This document shows, piece by piece, positions 1-44,164 of a stretch of 44,164 nt of DNA (position 1 is the first letter of the stretch; each line of letters starts with the position of its first letter). The notes below the pieces were generated by a model, which did not search any database, was not told the origin of the DNA, and was given only the letters and a program-made list of their open reading frames with translations. Origin of the DNA: Spirochaetales bacterium (GTDB taxonomy: Bacteria > Spirochaetota > Spirochaetia > DSM-2461); contig JAQQAM010000035.1 in NCBI GenBank assembly GCA_028532905.1, positions 1-44,164 on the forward strand, given 5' to 3'. The position numbers and the translations under genes were made by a program.

Positions 1-1251
1 AATTGTTGGATCGACAGGCTTCATTCCTTCTTCGTTTAAACGTCCCACATTGCTGAATGTGGTTTCAATTGAATCATCAACAAGTCCCTGGGGCTGGAGT
101 TGATGTCCTGATATGGCAAGCATTGAAGCAAAGTATGCCTCATCCGCGCCTGTTGCAACTTTAAAACTGCATGAAAATTTTGCACCGTCACACAGCATCC
201 CGGACAGATTTGCCAGAACCATTTTTATGGATCTGGTACAAACTTCAGTATTTTCTGTTTCCATATAAGTAATTCCGGCAGCTGCACCGGCACCAGCTGT
301 AATAGAACAACCACAGCTGGCTGATAAACGACCAAGATGACTTTTTATCATGGAGCATGAGAGATGACTGACTGCTACAGCAGTTGTGATCCTTCTAAGG
401 TCATATCTTTTATTTATTCCATATAGGTAAACTGGTAGAATCGCTGTAATTCCATGATTACCACTTCCAGCACTACTCATGACTGGTAGATTGACTCCAT
501 GCATTCTTGCATCGGATGCAGCCGCACAATAAGCCTTAATTTGTAAGGCCAAATCTTCAGTGCTAGAGTATTTTCTGATATTTCTTCCCAGACCAACTCC
601 TACGGTATTTTGTAGTCCAAAATCAGCAATCCTTTTATTCATTAGACAACCTTCCCATAGGAAATTATGATCCTCCTCATCCAGGTCCTCTACGAGTTTT
701 ATTAAATCTGAATAGGAATATTCTTTCAATTGCTCTTGTATGCTTACCAATTGTTTGGTATCGCTCTTCCGGTCAATGATCAGATTGCCATCGCATTCAA
801 CTCTAGTAATATTAGAGTGATGTCCCCGAATGGTTACATTGCAGATCTTTCCTCCGGATTTGGATTCTACATGAATATAAACACCATCATAATCATTTGG
901 ATGGATAGTTATTATATTTTTTTTAATAAGTGATACACTTTTTTCTTTATCTTTCTGTGTATATCCGCAAAGAACCTCCAACCCCATTGATGACCTACCG
1001 CAAATCCAGGAAAGAGCAGCAGCTGTAGAATTGCCTGTATAAGGTTCCATTCCTGGAATTCCAACAGTAGCTCCGTTTTTGAAGATTCCCTTACTAACGT
1101 ATATTCTAATTGATTCTAACTGATCTCTCTGAATGCCTAATGATTCCAATTCTTCTGCTGATCTGGCAACAGCCAGGGCTATCGCTCCAGGTTCAGTACA
1201 ACCTAATGCAGGCTTCACTTCTTCTTTTAAAAAATTTTTAATAGTAAGCAT
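1..1251 (-). CDS. cyuA: L-cysteine desulfidase / serine dehydratase-alpha-like Fe-S lyase (CyuA/YhaM family), 3' end cut by window
   Basis: The reverse strand is open from the ATG at 1251 to the window edge (417 codons), so the C-terminus is missing by perhaps 10-30 residues. Family hallmarks are visible: GCTEPGAIALA with Cys18 near the N-terminus, a glycine-rich SAGSGNHG stretch in the middle, and a CDGAKFSC segment near the C-terminus. In this family such cysteines hold a [4Fe-4S] cluster that catalyses beta-elimination from L-cysteine (or a related amino acid), giving 2-aminoacrylate, then pyruvate and ammonia. The stop of the upstream permease lies 2 nt before this ATG, and the Shine-Dalgarno AAAGGA overlaps that stop, so translation is probably coupled. 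It is the last visible gene of the AKR/UroD/ABC operon. The family call is firm; the true substrate (cysteine, serine or a beta-substituted amino acid) is unknown. Confidence 0.85.
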   Translation of the reverse strand, partial: MLTIKNFLKEEVKPALGCTEPGAIALAVARSAEELESLGIQRDQLESIRIYVSKGIFKNGATVGIPGMEPYTGNSTAAALSWICGRSSMGLEVLCGYTQKDKEKSVSLIKKNIITIHPNDYDGVYIHVESKSGGKICNVTIRGHHSNITRVECDGNLIIDRKSDTKQLVSIQEQLKEYSYSDLIKLVEDLDEEDHNFLWEGCLMNKRIADFGLQNTVGVGLGRNIRKYSSTEDLALQIKAYCAAASDARMHGVNLPVMSSAGSGNHGITAILPVYLYGINKRYDLRRITTAVAVSHLSCSMIKSHLGRLSASCGCSITAGAGAAAGITYMETENTEVCTRSIKMVLANLSGMLCDGAKFSCSFKVATGADEAYFASMLAISGHQLQPQGLVDDSIETTFSNVGRLNEEGMKPVDPTI

Positions 1252-1253
1252 AT

Positions 1254-2084
1254 TTATCCTTTTGTGGCCCCCGCTGTGAGATCTGCAACTTGAAATTTCT
1301 GTAGAATGAAATAAAGAATTACCAATGGCAGTACGGCTATTGTTGCTCCAGCCATGATTACTGGCCAAGGAGTTGAAAGCCCCTCTGAAACGGGAAGCTG
1401 TGACAGTGAAACCATTAAGGTGAACTTCTCTGGGGTTCGCATAAAAAGAAGAGGCCATAAGAGTTCATTCCATCTGGCAATTAAACCTATCGAAGCCCAG
1501 GCTGCAAGAGCCGGAGAGATAACAGGTAATACCATATTCCAATAGATTCTGAATTCACTGCATCCATCAATTCGACTTTGTTCCATTAGAGAATCAGGAA
1601 AACTGAGTATGTACTGCCTCATATAGAATATACCCACTGCTGTAGCGGCTCTCGGTATAATTAGTGATATTAGTTTATTGATCCATCCCAGTTGGCGCAT
1701 GATCAGAAAAACTGGAATTACATTTGTCTCTGGTGGAACCATCATTGTGGCAATCAAAAAAATAAAGAGAAAATCTCTTCCCGGAAATTTATATTTGGCA
1801 AAAGCAAAACCGGCTAGAGAACAAAAAAACACAGTTAGTATAGTACCTGACAACGATACAATCACACTATTCAGAAAGTTCTGCCAGATGGGCATCAATA
1901 AACTTACCTGATAAAAATTCTCAAAAGCAATGCGGCTAGGAAGTATTTCTCGGATAGTTCCAAAGCTCTCAGTTACTGGTTTTACTGCAATGAGCAGCAT
2001 CCATAAAATAGGAAATAGTGCCAAAAAACAAGCGATGAAAATTAAAGCCTGTGCAAAATATGAACTAATTGTTTTTTTTGCCAT
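1254..2084 (-). CDS. Carbohydrate ABC transporter permease, MalG/UgpE type
   Basis: 276 aa inner-membrane protein with about six hydrophobic segments. The EAA loop that docks the ATPase is present near residues 165-195 (EQSRIDGCSEFRIYWNMVLP), with the IDGCS core typical of CUT1 sugar permeases. It would form the heterodimeric channel with the permease encoded 4 nt upstream. Length and motif spacing are normal for the MalG subgroup. No ATPase gene is present in the visible part of the operon, so the pair probably uses a shared MsmX/UgpC-type ATPase encoded elsewhere; that is inferred from the behaviour of CUT1 systems. The substrate cannot be read from the permease. Confidence 0.9.
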   Translation of the reverse strand: MAKKTISSYFAQALIFIACFLALFPILWMLLIAVKPVTESFGTIREILPSRIAFENFYQVSLLMPIWQNFLNSVIVSLSGTILTVFFCSLAGFAFAKYKFPGRDFLFIFLIATMMVPPETNVIPVFLIMRQLGWINKLISLIIPRAATAVGIFYMRQYILSFPDSLMEQSRIDGCSEFRIYWNMVLPVISPALAAWASIGLIARWNELLWPLLFMRTPEKFTLMVSLSQLPVSEGLSTPWPVIMAGATIAVLPLVILYFILQKFQVADLTAGATKG

Positions 2085-43310: not shown

Positions 43311-43337
43311 GTCAATGATGTCAATGATGTCAATGAA
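43311..43337 (+). repeat. Three tandem 9-bp repeats after ugd
   Basis: GTCAATGAT, GTCAATGAT and GTCAATGAA follow one another with no gap, between the ugd stop and its terminator. The copy number could vary by slippage. Confidence 0.85.
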
Positions 43338-43341
43338 ATGG

Positions 43342-43375
43342 AACCCGCCGGTCTGATGAGGATGGCGGGTTTTAT
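43342..43375 (+). terminator. Rho-independent terminator shared by convergent ugd and ABC-F genes
   Basis: AACCCGCC pairs exactly with GGCGGGTT around a 14-nt loop and is followed by TTATT on the plus strand. The ABC-F stop codon overlaps the plus-strand T-tract. Confidence 0.8.
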
Positions 43376-44051
43376 TGTGTTAAAGCCGCCAGTTCTTCCG
43401 CCGCCTGCTCCCAGGCTTCGGAAAGTTCCAGCTGTTTCTTTTCCAGCTCTTCAATTGCACGGCTGACGGCCTTCGCCTTTTCACCGTCAGAATAGACTTC
43501 GGGGGTTGCCAGTTTTTCATGCTCTGCTGTCAGCTTAGCTTCGCAGCGTTCCAGCTCTTCCATCAACCGGGCTTCCTGTCTCTCCAGCCGTCTGATGTCG
43601 GCTTTCAGTTTTTTCTCTTCTTCCCGGCTCAGTCTGGCAGAACCGGTTGCCTGAGAGGCCTCTGACTGAGAGGAGGCTGTTTTACCGGGATCTGCCCCGT
43701 TTGAGGCGGCTCCTGCGGCCTCTGCCTCCCGGCTTTCTTTCTTCCAGCGGTAATAGGCATAGTCCCCGTCGAAGTACTCGGCTTTTCCCGGAGTCAGCTC
43801 CATAACCGATCCGGCCAGAGCCTCTATAAAATACCTGTCATGGGATACAAACACCAGAGTGCCTTCATAATTCTTCATGGCATCCAGAAGCACATCCTTG
43901 GATGTGAGATCCAGATGGTTGGTGGGCTCATCCATAACCAGAAGATTCACCGGTTCCAGAAGAAGTTTCAGCAGGGCCAGCCTGTTTTTCTCACCACCGC
44001 TCAGGACGGCGCATTTTTTGTAAATATCATCGTCAGAAAACAGATAAGACT
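43372..44051 (-). CDS. ABC-F family ATPase, C-terminal part only
   Basis: About 225 residues of genuine ABC-F sequence. They start near SYLFSDDDIYKK, then give the signature LSGGEKNRLAL, Walker B LLVMDEPTNHLDL, the switch-region SHDRYF, and a charged coiled-coil tail ending in AALTQ. ABC-F proteins act on ribosomes (translation factors or antibiotic protection) or remain uncharacterised. A whole protein has about 600-650 aa with a second ATPase domain in front; that half is missing because the sequence changes to unrelated DNA at about 44031-44051. The open frame continues to 44142, but residues before SYLF do not belong to the family. Confidence 0.85.
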
Positions 44052-44108
44052 GACGCCAACGGCGACGGGAATCACATAAAGCAAACGTCGGAAGAAATAG
44101 ACCAGCAT
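44031..44108 (-). pseudogene. N-terminus of an unrelated peptide-type ABC permease fused to the ABC-F sequence
   Basis: In a frame different from the ABC-F frame, ATG at 44108 begins MLVYFFRRLLYVIPVAVGVS followed by LICFLT. This is the typical start of DppB/OppB-type permeases (RRLLYxIPVxxGVSLxxFLL). The homology stops where the ABC-F homology begins. About 18 bp can be read as either protein, fitting a join at a short shared sequence. It is a fragment, not a functional gene. Confidence 0.65.
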
Positions 44109-44164
44109 CAGCACGCCTGGTTGTCATTGAAAGGAATTTCATGAAAACCGGCAGCCCCGTGGTG
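44108..44164 (-). CDS. Last 18 codons of an unidentified gene upstream of the permease fragment
   Basis: The frame from the window edge ends HHGAAGFHEIPFNDNQAC and stops at a TGA overlapping the permease ATG (TGATG), the layout of a normal operon junction. It is too short to identify; an ABC-transport partner would be expected from the context. Confidence 0.4.
   Translation of the reverse strand, partial: HHGAAGFHEIPFNDNQAC

Follow-up and report, generated by a model that had tools for sequence, protein, structure and literature searches.

The window analysed here, a stretch of 44,164 nt (positions 1-44164), is one complete contig (C35) of a draft host genome that comprises 4,976,132 bases in 296 contigs (G000; 95% complete, 2% contamination). 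At the extreme end of this contig the sequence passes abruptly from an ABC-F ATPase gene into the beginning of an ABC permease gene, and this switch is present in the assembled sequence (Table 1). The opposite end of the contig interrupts an ordinary gene (window 1-1458, minus strand), which we take to resemble the UPF0597 / L-cysteine desulfidase-like family.

Table 1. Features at the chimeric end of the contig, in window coordinates.
Feature	Position	Strand	Basis
C-terminal part of the host ABC-F ATPase gene	43372-44031	minus	ABC-F profiles; congener tblastn; in-frame join to C267
Join zone GTCAGAAAACAGA, equal to C267 positions 2-14; 7 nt (44038-44044) also match the Martelella homologue	44032-44044		Contig and Martelella comparison
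Foreign tail, 120 nt: start of an oligopeptide/dipeptide-type ABC permease (ATG at 44108) with its untranslated leader	44045-44164	minus	85% DNA identity to Martelella
Spurious 256-aa ORF without a stop at the join: out-of-frame foreign leader followed by the C-part of ABC-F	43372-44142	minus	ORF list; join and leader comparison

Followed upward from 43372 in the minus-strand frame, ABC-F homology persists through ...LFSDDD and is then lost. Over this part the gene shares 64-76% protein identity with its congeners (tblastn). The aligned protein of one congener (G001) reads ...KLRGMLGAFLFSDDDIYKKCAVLSGG where the window reads ...RRWRQSYLFSDDDIYKKCAVLSGG, such that host homology stops just before LFSDDD. 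The original prediction had taken SYLFSDDD as the edge of the ABC-F homology; the true ABC-F reading is GAFLFSDDD, and the 'S-Y' ahead of LFSDDD belongs to the foreign side.

A search with the ABC-F C-part also matched a second contig of the same draft, C267 (10,351 bases), near its start, which reads NGTCAGAAAACAGAAAGGCTCCC. The opening bases of C267, N followed by GTCAGAAAACAGA, overlap window 44031-44044, with C267 positions 2-14 identical to window 44032-44044. The 450 ABC-F codons absent from C35 are encoded on the minus strand of C267 and end ...KLRGMLGAFLFSD. When window 43372-44031 was joined to C267 from position 2 onward, we obtained a reading frame of 2010 nt that encodes a 669-aa ABC-F protein, with one terminal stop and no internal stops. 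The single N at C267 position 1 (L043) falls exactly at the break, where the expected host base is that of window 44031 (C); among 20 other contig starts, none had an N and none shared a 13-mer with the end of C35.

The congeners show synteny across the break. In all five congeners searched (5/5), as in most relatives, the ABC-F gene is intact, and the parts found on C35 and C267 are consecutive codons in each of the five, the gene being continuous at the exact break codon. The next gene on C267, encoding an SH3-like lipoprotein, adjoins ABC-F in all five congeners, and the ROK-like and ankyrin-repeat genes that come after it on C267 follow in four of the five, the fifth keeping only the nearest neighbour; on the opposite side of ABC-F, four congeners carry the UDP-glucose dehydrogenase gene of the window. 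The labels SH3-like, ROK-like and ankyrin-repeat are presumptive ones assigned by sequence appearance, and the synteny argument is independent of them, being based on identity to the genes of the congeners. Because the two parts join in frame into a 669-aa protein and synteny with the congeners runs across the break, C35 truly continues into C267, and ABC-F has been neither cut short nor lost. The reassembled gene resembles the ABC-F ATPases of the host genus in being full-length, with 64-88% protein identity to the congeners (by parts), and differs from them in nothing unusual, the apparent truncation coming only from the contig break.

The foreign tail reads on its minus strand MLVYFFRRLLYVIPVAVGVSLICFL, corresponding to the N-terminus of a DppB/OppB-type permease. 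Using tblastn against plasmids, we found that it matched permeases of Rhizobiales and other alphaproteobacteria (E down to 4e-5) that belong to oligopeptide-type operons, while blastn against the same collection returned short matches only (E >=1). This N-terminus is homologous to annotated permeases, whose leader the tail's leader also resembles, which bears out the original description of a switch from ABC-F into a DppB-type N-terminus, as does a DNA match. When 84,980 species genomes were scanned with a degenerate pattern, a single locus was recovered, in Martelella sp. HB161492 (Alphaproteobacteria; Hyphomicrobiales), with a peptide pattern shorter than VYFFRRLLYVIPVAVGV; VYFFRRLLYVIPVAVGV itself, scanned in genome contigs, and a looser pattern, scanned in viral contigs, gave no match. 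The tail and the Martelella locus share 85% DNA identity over 122 nt (E 3e-32), spanning 25 permease codons plus the leader ahead of the permease ATG, and their local alignment score of 156 lies far above chance (at most 25 in 200 shuffles). Other genomes of the genus and family of Martelella gave at most weak, coding-only matches to the tail, and in the collections searched the exact donor was not found, the best match being that at 85%. Judged from this relative, which at 85% identity also stands in for the foreign sequence at the join, the source of the tail appears to be a Martelella-like alphaproteobacterium; the proposed check of whether the tail matches another taxon was thus answered in the affirmative.

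In Martelella, the last position of the substrate-binding-protein gene is L047:2375, the permease start lies at about L047:2512, and the leader homologous to the tail (L047:2460 onward) is intergenic. The operon resembles the tail throughout this leader as well as in the permease; it differs in that just 120 nt of it are present here and that identity ends at the join. Since the aligned leader is non-coding in Martelella and the alignment contains indels, the 3' gene end and TGATG junction originally read in the tail are probably a chance reading of leader DNA, the upstream gene in Martelella stopping well over 100 nt short of the permease.

The tail is foreign to the host. It has no second copy in the draft genome, none of 394 further genomes of the host class (all five congeners among them) matches it, and when 3.8 kb of the Martelella operon was searched against the draft the sole match was C35:44038-44161. 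The draft's own DppB/OppB-type permeases are just 28-42% identical. One further alignment of the tail within the draft (C265:25547-25595, E 0.002) lies in a histidine-kinase-like gene and was set aside as a chance alignment over about 50 nt. In the Martelella genome, the closest relative of the C-part of the host ABC-F is 30% identical, against 42-79% for most ABC-F orthologues within the host class, and host and donor are therefore well separated.

The position of the join can be narrowed from both sides. The window follows C267 through 44044 and diverges from it at 44045, Martelella homology extends inward as far as 44038, and Allorhizobium, a more distant relative, reads TCTGTTTTCTG at the join position; for these reasons the stretch common to both sources comprises no fewer than 7 nt, probably 11, and no more than 13. 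A micro-homology join had been proposed, and a shared stretch does exist, but at 7 to 13 nt instead of about 18; by the same C267 identity and Martelella homology, the join falls within 44032-44044 and not across 44031-44051. We detected no long repeat at the join, only inverted matches of 6-9 nt, among them CGTCAG/CTGACG at 44031-44036 and 44050-44055, a size expected by chance.

Three explanations of this structure were weighed. A real genomic deletion, joining the host ABC-F gene with a permease operon of the host, was offered in the original prediction as the less likely alternative, and would be suited by the microhomology at the join. The uninterrupted gene that C35 and C267 yield together, with the remainder of ABC-F and its syntenic neighbours present on the latter, contradicts it, as does a genome in which neither the permease nor the gene upstream of it has a copy to serve as a fusion partner; we regard it as having practically no chance of being correct. 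A real horizontal insertion, in which alphaproteobacterial DNA entered the ABC-F gene in some host cells and both alleles were assembled, would agree with a draft in which an intact path (C35 + C267) exists beside an interrupted one (the tail of C35), as a mixed population would. The ends of the tail, which begins mid-leader and breaks off around permease codon 25, speak against such an event, as do the join with its microhomology and no long repeats, the lack of any tail match in the class sample, and the lack of any adjoining part of the 3.8 kb Martelella-like operon on other contigs of the draft. Insertion is therefore very improbable, and its specific form, a recent, microhomology-joined insertion of alphaproteobacterial DNA into ABC-F among some members of the host population, is slightly more improbable still.

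We conclude that the contig end is almost certainly a chimera, in which host DNA and Martelella-like DNA were joined at 7-13 nt, an artefact of assembly or library preparation and not biology. The tail has its affinities with a member of another class, non-coding DNA included, the host gene and its synteny are restored by a continuation elsewhere in the assembly, and other DNA of the foreign operon is absent from the host genome, all in agreement with the chimeric end first proposed. Host and alphaproteobacterial DNA may have been joined physically at the shared sequence, during amplification or library preparation, or else in silico; the assembler would then have extended C35 along one or more chimeric reads until the contig ended, with the true path going on as C267. 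Short-read assemblers usually require overlaps longer than 13 nt, which makes an in silico misjoin less likely, and we infer that the origin of the join was a read or a molecule of the library, not the assembly step. Every observation is accounted for by a chimeric molecule or read that formed at microhomology and was extended at the contig end. Chimeric junctions formed during multiple displacement amplification (MDA) or library preparation similarly join unrelated segments at short shared sequences (Lasken and Stockwell 2007, PMC1855051); in E. coli MDA, 76.8% of junctions had at least 2 bp of microhomology, up to 21 bp (PMC1855051), a published range that includes the 7-13 nt seen here. Unlike in those chimeras, the segments here come from different organisms. 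A literature search on chimeric contig ends in MAGs gave no match.

The significance of this chimeric end is one of quality control only. Trimming should remove the final 120 nt of C35, and C35 and C267 should be handled as neighbours. Gene finders would call the 256-aa hybrid ORF a short ABC-F protein with a strange N-terminus, and no database of proteins should list it as a fused or truncated ABC-F. As here, searching the remainder of the draft together with congeners can resolve what looks like a gene fusion or truncation where a contig ends. In the interval that separates the UDP-glucose dehydrogenase and ABC-F genes, the window also carries a short tandem array of TCAATGATG-like units (43311-43337), which is adjoined by a terminator-like hairpin.
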